A model generated the notes under the pieces. It saw only the letters and a program-made list of their open reading frames with translations. It had not been told where the DNA came from and did no database searches. A DNA stretch of 64,000 bases from Thermodesulfobium sp. 4217-1 (GTDB lineage Bacteria; Thermodesulfobiota; Thermodesulfobiia; Thermodesulfobiales; Thermodesulfobiaceae). Position numbers and translations under genes: made by a program. Shown here piece after piece: positions 20,495 to 30,650 of this stretch. The first letter of the stretch is position 1, and each line of letters opens with the position of its first letter. The DNA is taken from positions 62,001 to 126,000 of the forward strand of contig NZ_JBAGBW010000002.1 in NCBI RefSeq assembly GCF_039822205.1, read 5' to 3'.

Positions 20495-20536
20495 TAATTT
20501 AGGACGATTATTATAAAATCTCAAGGAGGGATGAGT

Positions 20537-22567
20537 ATGAGTGCTAGCGGGGAAGATGCTCTTAAGATTGGTGTCTACGTATGTCATTGTGGCGAGAATA
20601 TCGCGGGAGCTGTAGACATTGAAGAGGTCAGAAAGTTTGCAGAGTCTTTGCCAAACGTTGTGTTGGCTAGAGATTACATGTTTATGTGTTCTGATCCAGG
20701 GCAAGAGTTAATTAAAGAAGACATTAGAAAAGGGATTGTAAACAGAGTTGTAGTTGCTGCATGTACGCCAAGAACCCATGAACCTATTTTTAGGAAAGCG
20801 GTTGCTGATGCAGGTCTGAACAAGTATTTCTTCGAAATGGCCAATATTCGCGATCAGGATAGCTGGGCGCATTGGCATGATAAAGCCGGAGCTACAGAAA
20901 AGGCTAAGAAATTGGTTGCAAGCGGCGTATCTAAGGTTAGATTGGCTGAACCACTGGAAGAGTCTTATGTAGATGTTACAAAGGCTACTTTGGTAATTGG
21001 GGCGGGAGTATCAGGTATTTTTGCAGCCGTTGATATAGCCAATATGGGCTATAAAGTCTATATGCTTGACAGACAGGCTTCAATTGGCGGCAACATGGCA
21101 AAGCTTGACAAGACGTTCCCAACAAATGACTGTTCTGCTTGTATTCTTACGCCAATAATGGTTGCTGCTGGAACGCACCCAAATATCGAACTTTTGACAT
21201 ATTCTGAAGTGGAGTCAATAGATGGCTCTATCGGAAATTTCAAGGTCTTGGTGCGCAAAAAGCAGAGCTATATCGATTGGGATAAATGCACTGGATGCGG
21301 TGCGTGTATAGAGGCATGTCCAGGAAAAGTGGACAACGAGTTTAACGAAAATATGGACAAGAGAAAAGCTGTATATATTGAGTTTCCTCAAGCGGTTCCA
21401 AAAAAGGCTGTAGTAGATATGGAGCACTGCTTGAACTGTGCAGGGAGAACTATTGGCACTCAGCCAAAGCCTCACCCGAAGACAGGCGAGCCAATTTTAT
21501 CACCTTGTGAGAAGGCATGTCCAACTGGTGCATGTGACAGATCTTTGCCGTGGGATCCAAAGGGCCAATTAATTGAAATCAATGTGGGCACAATAATTGC
21601 AGCTACTGGATTTAAGGCTATGGATAAGACTCCATTCAAAGAATATTCACCTCAATCGCCAAACGTACTTACTTCGTTGCAGTTCGAGAGAATACTTTCA
21701 GCTACTGGACCAACTGAAGGAGAATTGCTTAGACCATCTGACAACGAACATCCAAAAACAGTCGCATTTATCTCCTGCGTAGGCAGCCGAGATAAGAATT
21801 ATCACCGTTACTGTTCTAAGGTTTGTTGTATGTATATGTTGAAAGAGGCAAGATTGATCAAAGAGAAATATCCAGATCTTAATGTTTATATATTCTTTAT
21901 AGACGTTCGTACTGCTGGTAAGGATTTCGAAGAGTATTATACTTACTGCAGAGAACTAGGCATCAGAGTAATAAGGGGTCGTGTGGGCGGAGTAGACGAA
22001 TTAGCAGGCGATCGTCTGCGTGTTCGTGCGTATGATGTAGATATGGGAGCACCAGTAGAGTTAGAGTCTGATATGGTTATTCTTGCAACTGCTATAGAAT
22101 CTCCTCCAGGAGTTGAAGAGCTTGGCAGAAAGTTGGGAATTCAGTGTGGTGGAGAAGGCTTCCTAAAAGAACTTCACACGAAGCTTTATCCTGTCGAGAC
22201 ATCGGTAAGAGGAATCTACATTGCTGGTTGTGCACAGGGACCAAAAGACATTCCAGAAAGCGTCTCACAGGCCAGGGCAGCAGCCGCAGCAGCGTCTATA
22301 CCTTTGACTGTTGGTAGAGTTGTCGTAGAACCTCTGATTTCTGAAATTAACTCTGATAAGTGTAGCGGATGTGGTATCTGCTTGCCGCTGTGTCCTTATT
22401 CAGCTATTAGCTGGAAGGAATATGGAGAAAAGAAGAGAGCGCACATCGACCCAGCACTGTGTACTGGATGCGGAGTATGCGCTTCAGCATGTCCTTCAAG
22501 GGCAATAGTGCTTCATGGGTTTACTACCGAACAAATTGAATCACAAATAGAGGCACTTACTTTTTAA
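20537..22567 (+). CDS. hdrA: Heterodisulfide reductase subunit A (flavin-based electron bifurcation)
   Basis: The protein has 676 residues from the ATG at 20537. An in-frame ATG at 20531 touches the ribosome binding site, so the second is preferred. A FAD-binding Rossmann motif VIGAGVSG is near 153-160. A [4Fe-4S] motif CTGCGACIEACP starts at Cys251, CVGSRD lies mid-protein, and two more ferredoxin motifs start at Cys609 and Cys642. HdrA carries the bifurcating flavin that splits electrons from hydrogenase between ferredoxin and the disulfide site on HdrB. No selenocysteine is needed. The C-terminal ferredoxin module is duplicated in the next gene. Confidence 0.95.
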   Translation: MSASGEDALKIGVYVCHCGENIAGAVDIEEVRKFAESLPNVVLARDYMFMCSDPGQELIKEDIRKGIVNRVVVAACTPRTHEPIFRKAVADAGLNKYFFEMANIRDQDSWAHWHDKAGATEKAKKLVASGVSKVRLAEPLEESYVDVTKATLVIGAGVSGIFAAVDIANMGYKVYMLDRQASIGGNMAKLDKTFPTNDCSACILTPIMVAAGTHPNIELLTYSEVESIDGSIGNFKVLVRKKQSYIDWDKCTGCGACIEACPGKVDNEFNENMDKRKAVYIEFPQAVPKKAVVDMEHCLNCAGRTIGTQPKPHPKTGEPILSPCEKACPTGACDRSLPWDPKGQLIEINVGTIIAATGFKAMDKTPFKEYSPQSPNVLTSLQFERILSATGPTEGELLRPSDNEHPKTVAFISCVGSRDKNYHRYCSKVCCMYMLKEARLIKEKYPDLNVYIFFIDVRTAGKDFEEYYTYCRELGIRVIRGRVGGVDELAGDRLRVRAYDVDMGAPVELESDMVILATAIESPPGVEELGRKLGIQCGGEGFLKELHTKLYPVETSVRGIYIAGCAQGPKDIPESVSQARAAAAAASIPLTVGRVVVEPLISEINSDKCSGCGICLPLCPYSAISWKEYGEKKRAHIDPALCTGCGVCASACPSRAIVLHGFTTEQIESQIEALTF

Positions 22568-22580
22568 GAGGAGGTGAACG
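22340..22580 (+). repeat. Direct repeat, copy 1 (hdrA ferredoxin module plus ribosome binding site)
   Basis: This segment encodes the last 75 residues of HdrA plus the following TAAGAGGAGGTGAACG. It is repeated at 22635-22875 with a constant offset of 295 bases and no net indel. The protein copies differ mainly by conservative changes, and the downstream ribosome binding site is identical in both. Confidence 0.8.
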
Positions 22581-22583
22581 GTA

Positions 22584-22862
22584 ATGGCGGTAACTGAGAT
22601 CCCTAAAGTTACAGATAACGTGGAGTCCTTGGTCTCTGAAGTTAATTCTGATAAGTGTAGCGGATGCGGTGTTTGCTTGCCATTATGTCCTTACTCTGCA
22701 ATTGGTTGGAAGGATTACGGCGAAAAGAAAAGGGCTTACATTGACCCGGCGCTCTGCACTGGGTGCGGAGTATGCGTAGCCGCATGTCCTTCTAAGGCTA
22801 TAACCTTACAGGGTTTTTCTACTGAGCAAATTGAATCACAAATAGAGAATTTGACTTTTTAA
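22584..22862 (+). CDS. Stand-alone 2[4Fe-4S] ferredoxin derived from the HdrA C-terminus
   Basis: The protein has 92 residues. From residue 18 on it is a near copy of the end of HdrA, sharing for example the closing TEQIESQIE motif followed by LTF. Two clusters are bound by Cys25, Cys28, Cys31, Cys35 and Cys58, Cys61, Cys64, Cys68. The first 17 residues are unrelated to HdrA. It lies between hdrA and hdrC with identical ribosome binding sites before and after. It may act as a mobile electron carrier for the complex or replace the HdrA module; this is inference. Confidence 0.9.
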   Translation: MAVTEIPKVTDNVESLVSEVNSDKCSGCGVCLPLCPYSAIGWKDYGEKKRAYIDPALCTGCGVCVAACPSKAITLQGFSTEQIESQIENLTF

Positions 22863-22875
22863 GAGGAGGTGAACG
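22635..22875 (+). repeat. Direct repeat, copy 2 (ferredoxin gene plus ribosome binding site)
   Basis: This is the second copy of the 22340-22580 segment. It covers most of the ferredoxin gene and the AAGAGGAGGTGAACG that serves the next gene, hdrC. The shared non-coding part shows that the duplication included the intergenic ribosome binding site. Confidence 0.8.
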
Positions 22876-22878
22876 TTA

Positions 22879-23442
22879 GTGGCTGAAATAGAAGTTCTTA
22901 ATATTTCAGAAGGTGAAGTAGGTTTTTCTGATGAGATAATGAAATTGGGAGCAGAGGAGCTGTTAGATTGTATCCAGTGCGCCAAGTGCGCTGCTGCGTG
23001 TCCAATGGTTCTTGCTGGTTTTGAATTTTTTAATAAACGTGTTATCCAATCTATTTTGATAGGTCAGAAAGAAATTTTGCTCGATGACAGCTCTATCTGG
23101 GCTTGTCAGGCATGCAATAGATGTACTGAGGTATGTCCAAGAAAGGTAGAGCCTTTCGGCGTAATAATGGCGATGAGGCGTTCTGCAATGAAGGAATTTG
23201 CTTTACCAACCCTTGCGATAGAGGGCCTAAAGTCGTTATATGATGTAGGCCACGCTGTATATTTTTCTAACGCGGGAGAAAATAGAAAAAAAGTAGGTTT
23301 GCCAGAAAAAGCTCCTACAACCGCGAATAATCCTCAAGCTCTAAAAGAACTAAGGATTCTAATGAACAAGTCAACCCTGTCTTCATTGGGCATTATTCCG
23401 ATGGATGCGGGACTGACTGATGTCACTTGTTGTGAGGTGTAG
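22879..23442 (+). CDS. hdrC: Heterodisulfide reductase subunit C
   Basis: The protein has 187 residues and starts at GTG after AGAGGAGGTG. Two [4Fe-4S] motifs are present: Cys31, Cys34, Cys37, Cys41 (CIQCAKCAAACP) and Cys76, Cys79, Cys82, Cys86 (CQACNRCTEVCP). HdrC passes electrons between HdrA and HdrB. The length and the C-terminal helical tail fit methanogen-type HdrC. It is followed 3 bases later by hdrB. Confidence 0.93.
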   Translation: MAEIEVLNISEGEVGFSDEIMKLGAEELLDCIQCAKCAAACPMVLAGFEFFNKRVIQSILIGQKEILLDDSSIWACQACNRCTEVCPRKVEPFGVIMAMRRSAMKEFALPTLAIEGLKSLYDVGHAVYFSNAGENRKKVGLPEKAPTTANNPQALKELRILMNKSTLSSLGIIPMDAGLTDVTCCEV

Positions 23443-23445
23443 CCG

Positions 23446-24339
23446 ATGAAAGTAGGTTTTTTTGTAGGTTGTAATACAGCATTCAATAGACCTGATTTAG
23501 AAAAAGCATTTCGCTATGTGTTGCCTATTTTAGGCGTTGATATTGACGATCTGGATGGTCAGTCTTGCTGCCCAACATGGGGCACTATGCCTTCTGTAGA
23601 TGAGGCTGGATGGTGTGCATTAGGGGCACGTAACTTTTTAATATCTGAAGAAAAGAACGTTGATATGGTTACCGTTTGTGGCAGCTGCTATGGCAGTTTG
23701 GCAGAAACAAAAAATAAATTGGATACAAAGCCTGAGCTTAGAGAAAAGGTAAACGAGATGCTTAAGGCTATTGGTAAGGAATATAAAGGCTCGACCAAGA
23801 TTAGGCTTGCTACAAACTTCTTCTACAATGAAATTGGCATTGAGAAGATTAAAAGCGCTTTGAAATATACTTTGGAAGGCGTTACTGTTGGCGTTCAGCC
23901 AGGTTGTCACTCTCTGTGGCCAAGTGAAGCTTATTTAGAGGGGGAAAAAGATTCTTTTCACCCTGTCATGCTAAGGGAGCTTTGTGAGGCATTGGGCGCT
24001 TCTGCTCCTTATTACAGTCGTGTTGTGGATTGTTGCGGAATGGGAGGTATGCGCTCTACAAACGTTGAGGCATCATTTAAGCTGGTAAAGACGAAACTGG
24101 ATTCTATGAAGAATGAGATAAAAGCTGATCTTTTGGTTACAGGCTGTAGTTCTTGCCTGATCCAGTTTGATACTGCTCAAGCTCCTATGAAGAAGGATAA
24201 AAAGATTGATTATGAGATACCTTCTATTCATTACGTACAACTCTTAGCACTTTGTTTGGGGGCGGATCCACAGCAGGTTGTCGGGCTTAGCACGACAGAT
24301 ATGAGTGGAATTTTAGGAAAGCTGAAGAAGATAAATTAG
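23446..24339 (+). CDS. hdrB: Heterodisulfide reductase subunit B
   Basis: The protein has 297 residues with two complete CCG motifs. The first is Cys9, Cys41-Cys42, Cys78 and Cys81; the second is Cys154, Cys196-Cys197, Cys234 and Cys237. In methanogen HdrB these hold two non-cubane [4Fe-4S] clusters that cleave the disulfide substrate. Keeping both full motifs means the enzyme is probably a true disulfide-type reductase. In an organism without coenzyme M the physiological disulfide is unknown; DsrC trisulfide is a candidate. Confidence 0.93.
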   Translation: MKVGFFVGCNTAFNRPDLEKAFRYVLPILGVDIDDLDGQSCCPTWGTMPSVDEAGWCALGARNFLISEEKNVDMVTVCGSCYGSLAETKNKLDTKPELREKVNEMLKAIGKEYKGSTKIRLATNFFYNEIGIEKIKSALKYTLEGVTVGVQPGCHSLWPSEAYLEGEKDSFHPVMLRELCEALGASAPYYSRVVDCCGMGGMRSTNVEASFKLVKTKLDSMKNEIKADLLVTGCSSCLIQFDTAQAPMKKDKKIDYEIPSIHYVQLLALCLGADPQQVVGLSTTDMSGILGKLKKIN

Positions 24340-24361
24340 TATTATGGAGGTTCAATAAATT

Positions 24362-24778
24362 ATGAGCGAATGGACACCTAATTTGATCGTTTTTGCGTGT
24401 AACTGGTGTACTTATCAGGGGGCAGATCTTGCTGGTAGCTTACGTTATGATTACCCATCCAACATAAAGATTATACGTGTTCCTTGTAGTGGAAGGGTAG
24501 AGCCTGAATTTGTAGTGGAGGCTTTTAAAAGGGGTGCTGACGGGGTATTTATTGGAGGTTGCCACCCTGGAGACTGCCACTATAAAGAGGGAAATTATAA
24601 GGCTATAAGAAGGTTTGATTTGTTGAAACGCATTCTTCTTGATATGGGGATAGAAACAGAAAGATTTCAGTTAGAATGGATTTCTGGTTCTGAGGGGAAG
24701 AGATTTGCAGAGGCTATGACGACTTTTGAGAAAAATGTGAGAGAATTGGGACCCTGTAGGGTAAAGGAGGGAGTGTAA
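24362..24778 (+). CDS. mvhD: Methyl-viologen-reducing hydrogenase delta subunit
   Basis: The protein has 138 residues, the usual MvhD/FrhD size. Conserved features are Cys13 and Cys16 in FACNWCTYQGADLAG, RVPCSGRVEPEF, and GGCHPGDCHY. MvhD holds a [2Fe-2S] cluster and connects the [NiFe] hydrogenase to HdrA. Its place between hdrB and mvhG supports a single HdrABC-MvhADG complex. It overlaps mvhG by 1 base. Confidence 0.93.
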   Translation: MSEWTPNLIVFACNWCTYQGADLAGSLRYDYPSNIKIIRVPCSGRVEPEFVVEAFKRGADGVFIGGCHPGDCHYKEGNYKAIRRFDLLKRILLDMGIETERFQLEWISGSEGKRFAEAMTTFEKNVRELGPCRVKEGV

Positions 24779-25746
24779 TGGCAGACAAAAAGCTTAGATT
24801 AGCTGTTTTGATGGCAGGAGCATGTGGTGGCTGTGATATGGCTATAGTAGATATTTCAGAAACGCTTGTAGACGTGCTGCCCTCTCTGGAAGTGGTTTTT
24901 TGGGCGCCAACTGTTGCTGACGTAAAATATAAAGATTTAGAGGCTATGCCTGATAAATCAATTGATGTAGGATTGATATCGGGAATGATTCGTTTGGATG
25001 AACACGAGCATATGTGTAAGGTTATGAGGGCAAAATGTAATGTAATCGTTGCTTATGGAGCATGTGCTGCTATGGGTGGAATTCCTGGCATGGCCAACAT
25101 GCACACAAAGGAAGAAATATTCCAGACCGCATACTTTGATACCTTTAGCACCGACAATCCAGAAGGCGTTACTCCACAGCCAAGCTACCTTTTGGATGGG
25201 AAGTATGACTTAACCTTGCCTACATTTTATCCTTATGTCAGACCAATCCAGTCAGTCATCGATGTTGATTTCTTTTTAGGTGGATGTCCACCGCATCACT
25301 CGGTTGTGCTAAACGCATTGGTTGCGATATTGAAAGGCGAATTGCCTCCTAAGGGTTCCTGGATAACAAATGGTAAGGCTGTTTGCGATGTTTGCGTTAG
25401 AAATCCGAGAAATACTGATGAAAAGAGAGAAATGGTAAAGGAAGTTAGAAGAACAATAGACGGTGATCCAGATGAAAATAAATGTTTACTTCAGCAGGGC
25501 TATATGTGCCTGGGACCTATTACTCAAGGAGATTGTGGGGCTTTGTGCCCTAAGGTAAACATTCCGTGTGCTGGCTGCGGTGGACCAATTCCAGGGGTGA
25601 AAGACTTTGGATTGAGGGCAGTAAGTGCTATTGCCTCATTAATGGATAATGAAGACTTGGTAAACCAAATACCTAGCCCAGTAAAATTATTCTATCGTTA
25701 TTCGCTCCCGTCATCTATGTTGGGCAAAAAAGTAAAAAAGGTTTAG
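24778..25746 (+). CDS. mvhG: Group 3c [NiFe] hydrogenase small subunit
   Basis: The protein has 322 residues with no twin-arginine signal, so it is cytoplasmic. The proximal-cluster motif is AGACGGCDMA (Cys16, Cys19), with AYGACAAMGG and GGCPPHH completing it. The C-terminal part has further cysteines (CDVC, CGALCP and CAGCGG) for medial and distal clusters. It carries electrons from the NiFe site to MvhD. Confidence 0.93.
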   Translation: MADKKLRLAVLMAGACGGCDMAIVDISETLVDVLPSLEVVFWAPTVADVKYKDLEAMPDKSIDVGLISGMIRLDEHEHMCKVMRAKCNVIVAYGACAAMGGIPGMANMHTKEEIFQTAYFDTFSTDNPEGVTPQPSYLLDGKYDLTLPTFYPYVRPIQSVIDVDFFLGGCPPHHSVVLNALVAILKGELPPKGSWITNGKAVCDVCVRNPRNTDEKREMVKEVRRTIDGDPDENKCLLQQGYMCLGPITQGDCGALCPKVNIPCAGCGGPIPGVKDFGLRAVSAIASLMDNEDLVNQIPSPVKLFYRYSLPSSMLGKKVKKV

Positions 25747-25748
25747 GT

Positions 25749-25838
25749 ATGAGTTTTATTGATAATGAAGTTAACCAAATGGCTATCTTGAGAATAGGAA
25801 TAAAATCTCATATTTCTGTACATAAGGGGGGAAGATAA
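25749..25838 (+). CDS. Possible 29-residue small protein between mvhG and mvhA
   Basis: An ATG at 25749 opens a 29-codon frame that stops exactly one base before the mvhA ATG (TAAATG). Only AAAGGTTTAGGT precedes it as a possible ribosome binding site. The product would be MSFIDNEVNQMAILRIGIK followed by ten more residues, and I recognise no family. It may simply be a translated spacer that couples mvhA to mvhG. Confidence 0.25.
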   Translation: MSFIDNEVNQMAILRIGIKSHISVHKGGR

Positions 25839-27371
25839 ATGGATCTTTCTGGAATCTTTAATTTTTTCCATGGTGGACAGAAAAGTAAAGAAGGAGTGAG
25901 AAATGATATGGCTTTAACAAAGATTGAAATTAATCCTATGACTCGTCTTGAAGGACACGGCAAAATAAGCATGTTCTTAGACGAGAAAGGAAATGTCGAT
26001 AATGCTTTCTTTCAAGTAGTTGAGCTTAGGGGATATGAGCGTTTCTTGCAGGGAATGCCTATAGAAGAAGTCCCTAGGACAGTTTCAACTATTTGCGGAG
26101 TATGTCGTGCAGTGCACTTTACCGCTTCTATGAAAGCATCTGATGGAGTCTACAATGTAGAGCCTACTCCTACTGCTCGTAAGATAAGAGAGATATTCTT
26201 CAACGCGCACTATGTAGAAGATCACGCTGCAATATTATATGCCCTTGGTTTTCCTGATTTTGTAGTAGGACCAACAGCTAATCCTGCTGAGAGAAACCTT
26301 ATAGGCTTAGTCAATGCTGTCGGCGCTGAAACTGGAAAACTGGTCCTAAGGAAGAGGTACGCTGCAGTCAAAGTGCTGGAAATGTTGGGCGGCAAACCTA
26401 TACACCCAGTAGCTGCTCTTCCAGGAGGCTGGTCGAAGAGGGTAACTCAGGATGAAAGAAAAGAGATAATGGCCTTAGCTGAAGAAATGGTAGAATTAGG
26501 CCAGCTAACTTTGAAGATCTTCGGAGATGTTGTACTTAACAATCCTGAATATGTAAAGCTGGTTACGGGAGATGTTTATAAAGTAGTTACTAACTATCTG
26601 GGCTCGGTAGATGAGAATGACAAAGTTGCCTTTTATGAAGGCACACAGAAATTTATAGATACAAACGGCAAAGAGATAGCGAGATTTAAAGGTAAGGAAT
26701 ATCTAGACTATATCGCTGAGAGAGTCCTCCCATGGAGCTATCTCAAGATGCCTTATATGAAGCAAAAGGGTTGGAAGGGCGTAGTCGATGGTCCTGATAC
26801 AAGCCTATATAGCGTTGGACCACTTCCAAGATTGAATGTGGCAAGCGGAATGCCTACTCCTCTTGCTCAGGAAGCTTATGAAAAGATGTTTAGCGTTTTT
26901 GGGCACAAACCTGTTCATAATATTATGGGTTATCACTGGGCAAGAGCTATTGAGCTCCTTTGTGCTGCTGAAAACATTCGTGAGTTGGCAAAAGACGAGA
27001 CTTTGTGCAATCCAGAAGTCAGATCTAAGTTAGGTCCTGCATCAGAAGGAGTAGGGATAGTAGAGGCTCCGAGAGGCACCCTGATACATCACTATGTAAC
27101 TGATGAAAAAGGCATTGTAGAAAAGGCAAACATTGTGGTAGCTACTACACACAATAAAGGTCCTATAAATGTTGCAGTAAAGCGTGCAGCACAAAACTTC
27201 ATTAAAGATGGTGTTATCAATGAAGGATTACTCAATATGGTTGAGTTAGCTTACAGACCATACGATCTTTGTCTAGCATGTGCTACCCATGCTCTTCCTG
27301 GGCACGATCCTTTGCAGATAGACATTTATGATCATGAAGGCAAACCATATAAGACTTTGAAGAATTTTTAG
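25839..27371 (+). CDS. mvhA: Group 3c [NiFe] hydrogenase large subunit
   Basis: The protein has 510 residues from the ATG at 25839 behind AAGGGGGGAAG. An internal in-frame ATG at 25908 (MALTKIEINPMTRLEGHG) has AAGGAG upstream and is an alternative start. The NiFe site cysteines are Cys86 and Cys89 (TICGVC) and Cys478 and Cys481 (DLCLACATH, His484). The first motif has Thr where many relatives have Arg (RxCGxC), and the second has Leu where many have Pro (DPCxxC). The 26 residues after His484 form a C-terminal extension that the maturation protease encoded next should remove. It oxidises H2 in the cytoplasm. Confidence 0.92.
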   Translation: MDLSGIFNFFHGGQKSKEGVRNDMALTKIEINPMTRLEGHGKISMFLDEKGNVDNAFFQVVELRGYERFLQGMPIEEVPRTVSTICGVCRAVHFTASMKASDGVYNVEPTPTARKIREIFFNAHYVEDHAAILYALGFPDFVVGPTANPAERNLIGLVNAVGAETGKLVLRKRYAAVKVLEMLGGKPIHPVAALPGGWSKRVTQDERKEIMALAEEMVELGQLTLKIFGDVVLNNPEYVKLVTGDVYKVVTNYLGSVDENDKVAFYEGTQKFIDTNGKEIARFKGKEYLDYIAERVLPWSYLKMPYMKQKGWKGVVDGPDTSLYSVGPLPRLNVASGMPTPLAQEAYEKMFSVFGHKPVHNIMGYHWARAIELLCAAENIRELAKDETLCNPEVRSKLGPASEGVGIVEAPRGTLIHHYVTDEKGIVEKANIVVATTHNKGPINVAVKRAAQNFIKDGVINEGLLNMVELAYRPYDLCLACATHALPGHDPLQIDIYDHEGKPYKTLKNF

Positions 27372-27397
27372 AAAAAATATTGTAGGTAGGTAATAAT

Positions 27398-27889
27398 TTG
27401 GATTTTGATGAAAGAAGTATTGAAAGAAGAGGCAAAACTGTAGTTTTAGGGATAGGCAATCCTGTATTGACCGATGATTCGGTTGGTATTAAAGTAGCCA
27501 AAAAATTAGAGGGATTTGTGGACACACATATCCTGATGACTACTGATTTTGACGTATTAGATACTTTATTTGGTTATGAGAGAGCGATAATTGTAGATGG
27601 CATTCGTTCTGGTGATGCTCCTGGTACTGTAAAGGAGGTATCTCCTGATGATTTGTCTCACACTCTCACATACTCAGGGTCTCATAACATTTCTTTGCCA
27701 TCTACACTGAAGATAGGCATTGAGATTTTAGGCGATGATATGCCTAAAGACATAAGGATTTTTACAATCGAATTGCTCGATGTAGATACTTTTAGCACCG
27801 ATTGTACTCCTATGGTACAGAAGGCTATTGAAGAGGTGGTTGAAAGAATTCAGAATTTAGTTAAAGATTCTGAGAAGTGTAAAATTTAA
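27398..27889 (+). CDS. Hydrogenase maturation endopeptidase (HyaD/HycI type)
   Basis: The protein has 163 residues and starts at TTG after GTAGGTAGG. The family opening VLGIGNPVLTDDSVGIKVAK carries the conserved Asp/Glu position near the nickel-sensing site, and SGSHNISLPSTLKIG contains the second His region. It cleaves the C-terminal tail of the NiFe large subunit once nickel is inserted. Its position right after mvhA indicates that MvhA is its substrate. It is the last gene before a strong terminator. Confidence 0.9.
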   Translation: MDFDERSIERRGKTVVLGIGNPVLTDDSVGIKVAKKLEGFVDTHILMTTDFDVLDTLFGYERAIIVDGIRSGDAPGTVKEVSPDDLSHTLTYSGSHNISLPSTLKIGIEILGDDMPKDIRIFTIELLDVDTFSTDCTPMVQKAIEEVVERIQNLVKDSEKCKI

Positions 27890-27906
27890 TAAGCTTAAAA
27901 TATGCT

Positions 27907-27953
27907 AAAGGGTACTATGCTAAATTTTTATAAAGGCATAGTACCCTTTTTTA
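27907..27953 (+). terminator. Rho-independent terminator of the hdr-mvh operon
   Basis: A perfect 11-base stem, GGGTACTATGC (27910-27920) with GCATAGTACCC (27936-27946), is extended by three A-T pairs. It is followed by a run of seven T. The loop is 15 bases. Confidence 0.9.
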
Positions 27954-28049
27954 TTATTTCTTATTCATAATTTTAGGATTTTTTTATTCTTAAATTTTAT
28001 TTTAAATTAAATAATTTTTTTATAATATGACTGAATTTTCTGTAAATAT

Positions 28050-28135: not shown

Positions 28136-29056
28136 TTGAATCAATTTATGATCTATTTTGCATGGTTTTCTGTAATGTGTTTTTTTGTAGGATCTTTTTT
28201 GAAATTATTAAAGATCAACAATATGCCCTTGCATCTCAGGGCAGAATTGTACCCTGTGGTTCACGATTCAAAATATAGTTATGGCGGCAGTTATATGGAA
28301 GACGTGAATTATGTCGAAGAGGTAAGAAAAGGACTGAAAAATATTTGGGTGAACGATATAATTGAAATCCTTAGAGAAGTGCTTTTCTTGGATAGGGTGA
28401 ACGAGTATAACATTTATGGTCTTTGGTTCCCATCTTTACTCTTGCACTGGGGGCTATATATTTTATTTGGTTGGATTTTCTTATCAGTTTTTTCTGTCTT
28501 TTGGCCATTCTACTTTTTGATACAGCTATCGAGCATTTTTGGAATCGTAGCTGGAGCATTTGGAGTATTGGGATCATTTATTTTGATTCTAAGAAGAATA
28601 TTTTCACAGGAGCTGAGGCTTTATACGACGCCTTTAGACTTTTTTAATCTTTTTCTACTCCTTTTTCTGTTTTTGGCAACTTTATCAACCTTTTTGTTTG
28701 ACGCAAATCACGATATTTTAAAGTATCTTGGCTCAGTGATATCGTTTAAACCTGCAAATATATCTAATTTTGTAATTGTTCAATTTTTCCTGTTTCAATT
28801 TTTCCTGTTTTATTTTCCATTTTCAAAATATATGCATGCACCGATTAAATATTGGACTTGGCACGGCATTATGTGGGACGATACGCTTACGATGAAAGGT
28901 AACAAACAAGACTTAATTCTTCAGGAACAACTAAAATATAAACAATACTGGGCTGCCCCACATGCTATACCGGGCGCTTCATGGGCTGAAGTCGCTACCA
29001 ATTTAAAAGTAGAAGAAAGGGGAAACAATAATGGCAATAAAAAGACCACCCTTTAA
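28136..29056 (+). CDS. DsrM/NarI-like membrane cytochrome b subunit
   Basis: The protein has 306 residues and starts at TTG, 5 bases after AAGGAGG. Five hydrophobic helices are seen at about 4-25, 97-123, 128-152, 168-189 and 212-232, the NarI/DsrM arrangement. Candidate heme b ligands are His104, His192, His234 and His243. The soluble C-terminus ends in a Lys/Asn-rich tail. It should take electrons from menaquinol and pass them to the iron-sulfur partner encoded next, with which it overlaps by 26 bases. HmeC or TmcC-type subunits are alternatives in the same superfamily. Confidence 0.8.
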   Translation: MNQFMIYFAWFSVMCFFVGSFLKLLKINNMPLHLRAELYPVVHDSKYSYGGSYMEDVNYVEEVRKGLKNIWVNDIIEILREVLFLDRVNEYNIYGLWFPSLLLHWGLYILFGWIFLSVFSVFWPFYFLIQLSSIFGIVAGAFGVLGSFILILRRIFSQELRLYTTPLDFFNLFLLLFLFLATLSTFLFDANHDILKYLGSVISFKPANISNFVIVQFFLFQFFLFYFPFSKYMHAPIKYWTWHGIMWDDTLTMKGNKQDLILQEQLKYKQYWAAPHAIPGASWAEVATNLKVEERGNNNGNKKTTL

Positions 29057-30650
29057 CGATATTTCAAAAGATCTTAAAGAACCTATGGCTCCTATTGAGA
29101 TGGATGATTTGATAGATATATTGGGCATAGACAAAGGCGAAGAGACGCCATTAGAGCCAACAAACGATAGCATAAAAAATTCATACGATTGGTATTTAGA
29201 TGGGCATGTTGCGCTTAGTAATCTGTATCCACCGAAAACTAAGGAAGAAGAAAATGAAATTGTTAGAAAATTTCTGAGTGGTTTCGAGAAGCTGCTGGAT
29301 CCAAAAAATAATTGGACTATGCTACAGGTTTTGAAAACTGGTTTGGATTATTGCGTAAGGTGCCAAACCTGTTCTGAAGCCTGTCATGTGTTTGTCGGTA
29401 GTGGTAGGCAAGAGATTTATAGACCTACTTATAGGATAGAAATTTTGAGAAGAATATATAAGAAATATTTCACTCCAGAGGGGAAGCTTTTAGGCTCTTT
29501 TGTAGGCGCTGATGTAGATCTTAATTGGAAAACTATCTATAGGTTGGCTGAGTTAGCTCACAGATGCAATCTATGTAGGAGATGTGCCCAAAGGTGCCCT
29601 GTCGGCATTGATAATGGCTATCTTGCAAGAGAAATTAGAGTTCTTTTAAGTCAAGAGTTGGGCATTTCTCCTGCTGAAATATTAGAGAAGGGTTCTCGTT
29701 TGCAACTAACAGTAGGTTCATCTACTGGGCTTTCCCCAATGGCGCTAAAAGACTATTTAGAGTTTATTGAGGAAGATACCTATGAAAAAACTGGAATAAA
29801 GATTAAATTCCCAATAAACAAAAAAGGTGCTGATATACTGCTGATTCATAATGCTGGTGAGTATGTATCCTGGTATGAGAACCCTGCTGCATTTGCGATA
29901 TTGTTTGATGCTGCTGGAATAAACTGGACTATATCTGATGAGCCTGTTGGATATGACAATATAAACTATGGTCTTTGGAATGACGACATAGAGGCGGCAA
30001 GGGTAGTCTTGAGACAGGCAAAGATTGGCAAGGATCTTGGAGTTAAAAGGATAGTTATCGGCGAATGCGGACACTCTACAAAGGCATTTTGCGTTATCGG
30101 AGATAGAATCTTAACTGGAGATCTTGCCAGTTCTGAGCTATCAAGAGAGTCTTGCTTGCCTTTGTTCTGGGAAATTTACAAAAGCGGGGCGATAAAATTC
30201 GATCCTTCAAAGAATAACTTTCCCGTGACCCTTCATGACCCTTGTAATATGGTAAGGAATATGGGAATAGTCATGCCGCAAAGGAATGTACTAAACGCTA
30301 TTGCTCCAAGGTGGAGAGAGATGCATCCAAATGGGGTCAATAATTATTGTTGCGGCGGAGGTTCTGGCTTTGCAATTATGCAGGGCTTAAACTTTCCGCA
30401 GTGGAGAAACAAGATATCTTCAAGAGTTAAGCTAAATCAGATTTTAAATGCTTTCAAAGAAGAGTTGGATCCTGGCATTCCCAAATATGTTTGTGCGCCA
30501 TGTTCAAATTGCAAGGGAACCATTAGGGACCTTTTTGAGCACTATAAGTGCAAGGACAAGTTTAATCTCACTTATGGCGGTCTTGTTGAACTTATGGTAA
30601 ATTCTATGGTTGATATGAAGAAGCCTTATATTTCATGGGATGAATATTAA
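29031..30650 (+). CDS. DsrK/HdrD-like iron-sulfur protein
   Basis: The protein has 539 residues and starts at ATG behind AAGGGGAAA. Two [4Fe-4S] motifs are present: Cys108, Cys111, Cys114, Cys118 (CVRCQTCSEACH) and Cys179, Cys182, Cys185, Cys189 (CNLCRRCAQRCP). The C-terminal half is a CCG-type catalytic domain with LHDPCNMVRNMG, NNYCCGGGSGF and CAPCSNCKGT. This is the DsrK/HdrD pattern that reduces a disulfide or trisulfide on the cytoplasmic face. With the preceding cytochrome it forms a minimal DsrMK-like complex; DsrJ, DsrO and DsrP are not adjacent. Confidence 0.85.
   Translation: MAIKRPPFNDISKDLKEPMAPIEMDDLIDILGIDKGEETPLEPTNDSIKNSYDWYLDGHVALSNLYPPKTKEEENEIVRKFLSGFEKLLDPKNNWTMLQVLKTGLDYCVRCQTCSEACHVFVGSGRQEIYRPTYRIEILRRIYKKYFTPEGKLLGSFVGADVDLNWKTIYRLAELAHRCNLCRRCAQRCPVGIDNGYLAREIRVLLSQELGISPAEILEKGSRLQLTVGSSTGLSPMALKDYLEFIEEDTYEKTGIKIKFPINKKGADILLIHNAGEYVSWYENPAAFAILFDAAGINWTISDEPVGYDNINYGLWNDDIEAARVVLRQAKIGKDLGVKRIVIGECGHSTKAFCVIGDRILTGDLASSELSRESCLPLFWEIYKSGAIKFDPSKNNFPVTLHDPCNMVRNMGIVMPQRNVLNAIAPRWREMHPNGVNNYCCGGGSGFAIMQGLNFPQWRNKISSRVKLNQILNAFKEELDPGIPKYVCAPCSNCKGTIRDLFEHYKCKDKFNLTYGGLVELMVNSMVDMKKPYISWDEY

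Follow-up and report, generated by a model that had tools for sequence, protein, structure and literature searches.

Analysis of a 64,000-nt stretch of the Thermodesulfobium sp. 4217-1 genome (hereafter, the window) revealed a small ferredoxin gene, fd, between hdrA and hdrC of an HdrABC-MvhAGD operon. Its 92-aa product is a free paralog of the C-terminal 2[4Fe-4S] module of HdrA and not an HdrA, because it is encoded by a separate ORF with its own start codon and Shine-Dalgarno (SD) sequence. Sequence comparisons provide good support for an origin by duplication from the neighboring HdrA. In two complete genomes of congeners (G001 and G003), fd was found in the corresponding position of an operon with an identical gene order. 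The relevant features of the window are as follows:

20531-22567, + strand: hdrA, complete, 678 aa; an electron-bifurcating HdrA that retains a C-terminal 2[4Fe-4S] module
22325-22564, + strand: HdrA C-terminal ferredoxin module, first copy, delimited by the ungapped match to the second copy and by the module alignment
22566-22580, + strand: first copy of AAGAGGAGGTGAACG, comprising the end of the hdrA stop codon and the SD of fd
22584-22862, + strand: fd, the free ferredoxin gene, identified by its ORF, Fer4 domains and orthologs in G001 and G003
22861-22875, + strand: second copy of AAGAGGAGGTGAACG, comprising the end of the fd stop codon and the SD of hdrC
22879-23442, + strand: hdrC (TIGR03290, E 6.9e-28, below cut-off; Fer4_8)
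23446-24339, + strand: hdrB (TIGR03288, E 3.3e-74, below cut-off; two CCG domains)
24362-24778, + strand: mvhD (FlpD, PF02662, E 5.4e-54, above cut-off)
24778-25746, + strand: mvhG, [NiFe]-hydrogenase small subunit (PF01058; VhuG model E 3.4e-69, below cut-off)
25839-27371, + strand: mvhA, [NiFe]-hydrogenase large subunit (PF00374; VhuA model E 9.6e-111, below cut-off)
27398-27889, + strand: hydrogenase maturation protease (TIGR00072, above cut-off)

All eight genes, from hdrA through fd, hdrC, hdrB, mvhD, mvhG and mvhA to the maturation protease gene, run in one direction, and the HdrABC-MvhAGD gene set (hdrA, hdrB, hdrC, mvhD, mvhG, mvhA) is complete together in the window. HdrA matched the NCBIfam HdrA2/HdrA models with E-values of 2.8e-241 to 5e-176, under their full-length cut-offs, and residues 11-676 were covered by alignment with HdrA chains of the PDB. 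NCBIfam scores of the operon genes were lower than the curated cut-offs, with the exception of the maturation protease. The operon is that of an HdrABC-MvhAGD electron-bifurcating hydrogenase, for which H2-driven bifurcation to ferredoxin and disulfide is predicted. The inserted ferredoxin domain of HdrA (window 21287-21538, residues 253-336) possesses ~20 extra residues between cysteines 2 and 3 of its second cluster motif; this large insertion is not diagnostic of a need for an extra protein, as other bacterial HdrAs vary there. Elsewhere in the genome (G000), two more HdrA/QmoAB-like pairs with C-terminal modules were observed (G000:C5:19324-23588 and G000:C12:4104-7066). These pairs have no relation to the duplication.

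At the DNA level, a repeat finder detected a direct repeat of 22315-22609 in 22610-22904, with a spacing of 295 and 76% identity. Its core (22325-22580 vs. 22620-22875) was identical at 201 of 256 positions without a gap, while the next best ungapped match of 22325-22580 in the whole window reached only 96 of 256. Additionally, the 13-mer GAGGAGGTGAACG occurs at just two sites in the 2.0-Mb genome, one in each repeat copy. The first-pass annotation, made from the nucleotide sequence alone, had described a recurrence of the last 75 codons of hdrA and the following ribosome binding site 295 bases downstream with no net indel. Both self-comparisons confirm a 295-bp direct repeat, and the ribosome binding site is indeed repeated along with the codons, as AAGAGGAGGTGAACG at 22566-22580 and 22861-22875. 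However, the repeat takes in ~80 of the last hdrA codons, starting at VE-L-SE, together with the stop codon and SD region, so that homology of the first copy runs on past the hdrA stop and spacer to 22580. The gapless register holds in the window genome, but not in the sister genomes, where the copies are 300 bp apart. The inclusion of non-coding sequence in the event, which had been read from the shared 15-mer, is partly borne out by a GGAGGTGAACG core common to all six spacers of the three genomes, although the exact 15-mer is specific to the window genome. With sister copies 300 bp apart and separated by spacers of unequal length (in the sisters, TAAAAAATGAGGAGGTGAACG vs. TAAGGAGGTGAACG), both the register and the identity of the spacers seen in the window are peculiar to its genome.

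The proposed derivation of the free ferredoxin from the HdrA C-terminus was upheld by its relatives. Within its own genome, the best relative was the HdrA C-terminus (83% identity, E 7e-46), and no genomic ferredoxin was closer; the next relative was the C-terminus of another HdrA-like protein (39%, E 9e-18). The free ferredoxin and the HdrA C-terminal module (HdrA-C) share a two-residue insertion that is rare or absent in other HdrAs, as well as T59 and T80, positions occupied by K in 41 and by D in 40 of 45 other modules, respectively. In a module tree of 52 rows, which had few columns and numerous open forks, the three ferredoxins (97/71) and the three HdrA modules (99/92) of the genus formed sister clades that were jointly supported at 93/88. 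Whether sought in its own genome, in other genomes or among PDB folds, the closest relatives of the free ferredoxin were HdrA C-termini and not soluble ferredoxins. No small free ferredoxin was found among the best 80 of 310 relatives in GTDB genomes; 11 of these 80 loci were ORFs cut by a contig edge, and all 69 complete ORFs encoded proteins of at least 376 aa with the module near the protein end.

As annotated at first pass, the protein encoded between hdrA and hdrC (ORF 22584-22862) is a 92-residue 2[4Fe-4S] ferredoxin with Fer4 domains. The gene has 92 codons, an ATG start and its own SD, and its product is not a covalent part of HdrA. Eight cysteines, arranged in two CxxCxxCxxxC motifs with module spacing, make up a single 2[4Fe-4S] domain, and all eight are invariant across the 52-row alignment. 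The protein consists of the module copy plus an N-terminal extension of ~12 residues. After cluster II, it has the C-terminal tail F-T-x-x-Q-I-x-x-x-I, in which F78, I83 and I87 match the state of 76-89% of the 45 outgroup modules; position 82 is Q in the window ferredoxin and E in both sister ferredoxins. An AF2 model built on the 52-row alignment (mean pLDDT 83) predicted a ferredoxin fold with a C-terminal helix at residues 80-90, while most of residues 1-12 scored <50. When this model was compared with the PDB using Foldseek, the seven best matches were all HdrA chains. The pI of the free ferredoxin is ~4.6, which is not lower than that of the genome's other small acidic ferredoxins (4.05-4.45). 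When the window genome was compared with its sisters, we also observed strong silent-site conservation in the first 11 fd codons (window 22584-22616; pS 0.13, as against ~0.58 in the rest of the gene, based on few sites), possibly reflecting translation initiation or another constraint at the nucleotide level. RNA folds of the fd start region showed no shared structure of note.

Between the window genome and its sisters, the free ferredoxin is 82-83% identical, as compared with 95% for HdrA, 88-97% for the other Hdr-Mvh subunits and 83-85% for the maturation protease. At 13 nucleotide sites, HdrA-C and fd differ consistently in all three genomes (fixed differences), and the duplication therefore predates the split of these congeners. 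A recent duplication confined to the window genome was rejected on the basis of these differences and of the orthologs in the two sisters. The longest exact run between the two copies was 52 nt in G001, 29 nt in G003 and 21 nt in the window genome, whereas between-genome comparisons of the copies gave a longest run of 22. In a polymorphic-site permutation, P was 3e-4 for G001, 0.013 for G003 and 0.083 for the window pair (8.5e-4, 0.070 and 0.36, respectively, with third positions only), as against 0.16-0.98 for six between-genome controls; correction for nine comparisons leaves only G001 clear. We read these results as gene conversion between the copies in at least one lineage, clear in G001 and suggestive in G003, that reaches only part of fd. 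The single duplication event originally envisaged is thus retained as regards derivation from HdrA, but it is older than the species and was followed by gene conversion. Downstream of the operon (window 28136-30650) are genes encoding a NarI/DsrM-like cytochrome b subunit and a DsrK-like protein, which occupy the same position in G001 and G003; the NarI-like gene also has this position in a fourth congener, G002. A possible role of these proteins is that of a membrane partner for the disulfide electrons.

Over the 81-codon module, dN/dS was 0.09-0.11 for fd in all three species pairs and 0.012-0.036 for HdrA-C, with synonymous divergence in the fd pairs amounting to 0.27-1.22 changes per site. 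The reading frame and all eight cysteines are intact in all three orthologs. With a dN/dS of ~0.1, fd is subject to purifying selection, and its dN/dS, intact frame and cysteines rule out a pseudogene. Nonetheless, fd shows about three times the dN of HdrA-C (0.11 vs. 0.04 when the window genome is compared with its sisters), and both sister ferredoxins have lost P36 and Q82; for these reasons, the free copy may be only loosely constrained. In the cluster-II loop, position 65 is V in 42 of 45 outgroup modules and position 66 is A in all 45. Since V-A is found in the free ferredoxin and A-S in HdrA throughout the three genomes, HdrA is the copy that changed at these two residues, and the free copy retains the common, more ancestral HdrA state.

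In G002, which is 94% complete, no free ferredoxin and no HdrA or MvhG of the operon type were found. On a single contig, valS (99% identical to the first 242 residues of the window valS) and a narI-like gene (94%) lie ~700 bp apart. The sequence between them consists of the hdrA promoter region, the first hdrA codons and a 90-bp internal hdrA fragment matching window 20827-20916. When this locus (L157, G002:C28:1-6282) is compared with window 20571-27979, the whole hdr-fd-mvh-protease block is seen to be deleted, with the scar adjoining the narI-like gene. Because the full operon occupies the same place in G001 and G003, the G002 state is one of operon loss, in which the free ferredoxin was lost along with the complex. 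This co-loss is a single event and on its own does not establish a functional link, since all genes of a deleted operon disappear, irrespective of their functions.

A search for the same ferredoxin in HdrA-containing bacteria, as initially suggested, was successful in G001 and G003 but nowhere else in the genomes surveyed. Outside the genus, no free-standing module copies were detected in 142 distinct whole genomes (sets of 60, 4, 40, 3 and 39, with four repeats) and 80 loci, drawn from a limited set of phyla. Apart from the window genome, G001 and G003, the 142 genomes contained three short frames, all cut by contig edges (L137, L153 and L154); this count leaves aside a 272-aa frame in G112. 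In the case of L153 and L154 (G104:C149 and G104:C133), the two contigs, which belong to one genome, end at an identical position within near-identical HdrA C-terminal modules, as would be expected if repeated hdrA copies had halted the assembly. A non-exhaustive search of the literature on this gene and on the Hdr of Thermodesulfobium, including the accessible part of PMC8982180, found no detached HdrA module.

Taken together, these observations are best explained by a single tandem duplication of module, stop codon and spacer before the species of the genus split, with later partial re-homogenization of fd with HdrA by gene conversion. The 92-aa protein would then be a detached, still functional module copy that serves the co-encoded HdrABC-MvhAGD as a dedicated accessory electron carrier. 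Because the cysteines and the C-terminal helix are kept, it should meet the partners of the HdrA arm module; it may dock on them or be reduced by that module, and it would transfer electrons of low potential between the bifurcating complex and acceptors in the cell. The two roles suggested at first pass, a mobile carrier and a competitor for the HdrA docking site, are both plausible. In the available text of PMC12350162, the N- and C-terminal domains of HdrA follow the movement of the donor arm, and HA3, the C-terminal cluster, is the proposed "shuttle cluster" that picks up the low-potential electron at FAD' and delivers it to HA5'. The accessible part of PMC9012536 instead places the C-terminal module on the input side, from MvhD to FAD, and such an input-side route would make a carrier role for a module copy less obvious. 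The faster protein change of fd, the further small acidic ferredoxins of the genome and a pI no lower than theirs also count against that role. We give the accessory-carrier role an even chance of being correct. The origin and age of fd, its conversion in one sister, the selection on it and its joint absence with the complex in one congener are demonstrated by the data above; membership in the complex, docking site and direction of electron flow, as described here, are what we infer to be most likely. The main rival, which we consider possible but hold only tentatively, is a built-in relay or exchangeable arm module. The protein would be a stable arm subunit alongside MvhD and the N-domain of HdrA, or it would replace the covalent module in some complexes, altering gating or cluster potentials without diffusing away. 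Retention of the HdrA-specific C-terminal helix TEQIESQIE and of nearly all conserved module residues is in line with such a role, as is the location of the module in the mobile arm (available text of PMC12350162); the change of HdrA to A65 S66, while the free copy kept VA, would be expected under divided labor. On the other hand, HdrA is complete and has its own module with all cysteines, leaving no apparent vacancy, and stoichiometric binding is putative. A further, rather unlikely reading is that of a bifurcating HdrA with a divided shuttle. Here, the free copy, with its ancestral cluster-II loop, would be a dissociable shuttle that receives the low-potential electron from either the bifurcating flavin or HdrA-C and then departs with it, whereas the covalent module, altered at two otherwise nearly invariant residues, would serve the other branch, and conversion would keep the docking faces alike.

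Other explanations would dispense with a dedicated role in the complex. An ordinary, general-use soluble 2[4Fe-4S] ferredoxin that is merely encoded in the operon could account for the small size, pI of 4.6, soluble-ferredoxin fold and faster protein change relative to HdrA-C. We regard this as unlikely: the HdrA-specific tail is kept, the genome has further small ferredoxin genes, and operon-less G002, where a cell-wide carrier might have been kept, has no copy left. It is quite improbable that fd is a nearly neutral by-product, without distinct function, whose persistence is due chiefly to gene conversion and to a position among co-translated genes. The conversion tracts and the roughly threefold faster protein change agree with that idea, but conversion affects only part of the gene, and a dN/dS of ~0.1 has been maintained over the module, with every cysteine kept and no stop gained in the three lineages, over synonymous divergence of up to ~1.2 per site. 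Finally, we rejected as scarcely credible the arrival beside hdrA of an unrelated ferredoxin that then converged; the 83% identity, the ungapped DNA match through stop codon and SD, the common insertion and the tree all argue against it, as does the size of the relatives (all 69 complete ORFs among the best 80 of 310 encode larger proteins with the module near the end).

The free ferredoxin bears on a disputed point, namely, the exit route of the low-potential electron from HdrA, with the C-terminal module viewed either as an input-side module or as an output-side mobile shuttle cluster. A natural free copy of the module, which at 92 residues should be readily expressed, allows its reduction by the complex, its docking site and its ability to stand in for the covalent module to be examined directly. 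It also provides a case, with relative dates, in which a domain of a multi-domain redox enzyme gave rise to a free ferredoxin, the opposite of the more familiar fusion of domains.

Among known systems, the free ferredoxin most resembles the HdrA C-terminal domain of HdrABC-MvhAGD (PDB 5ODC/5ODI/5ODH, 8RVU/8RVY, 7BKB), with which it shares the fold, eight cysteines and C-terminal helix. HdrA chains of the PDB were its best matches by structure and, a multi-repeat polyferredoxin aside, by sequence as well. It differs in being separate, with its own start codon and a new N-terminal extension of ~12 residues, beside an intact HdrA. Clostridial-type soluble 2[4Fe-4S] ferredoxins are similar in size class, cluster motifs, acidic pI and free fold, but the free ferredoxin has an HdrA-type C-terminal tail and sequence, with an E-value of only 1e-4 to 1fdn, which we take to be a clostridial ferredoxin. 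The MvhB polyferredoxin of methanogen mvh operons is likewise a ferredoxin protein encoded in a hydrogenase operon and binds HdrA at the inserted ferredoxin domain (available text of PMC12350162). However, MvhB has 12 [4Fe-4S] clusters in many tandem repeats, whereas the free ferredoxin has two clusters and comes from the tail of HdrA itself; the score between it and MvhB is the sum of eight weak repeats, and homology to MvhB was ruled out by the cluster count. According to the accessible parts of PMC12054007 and PMC9012536, HdrA modules have been gained, lost, fused and split across variation classes, which include whole-HdrA tandems, fused HdrAs, HdrA lacking the C-terminal Fd domain, and insertions, but no detached additional C-terminal domain of the kind found here. 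The complex is of a known kind, and the detached copy of its C-terminal module is a new variation, seen in one small genus among the genomes examined.
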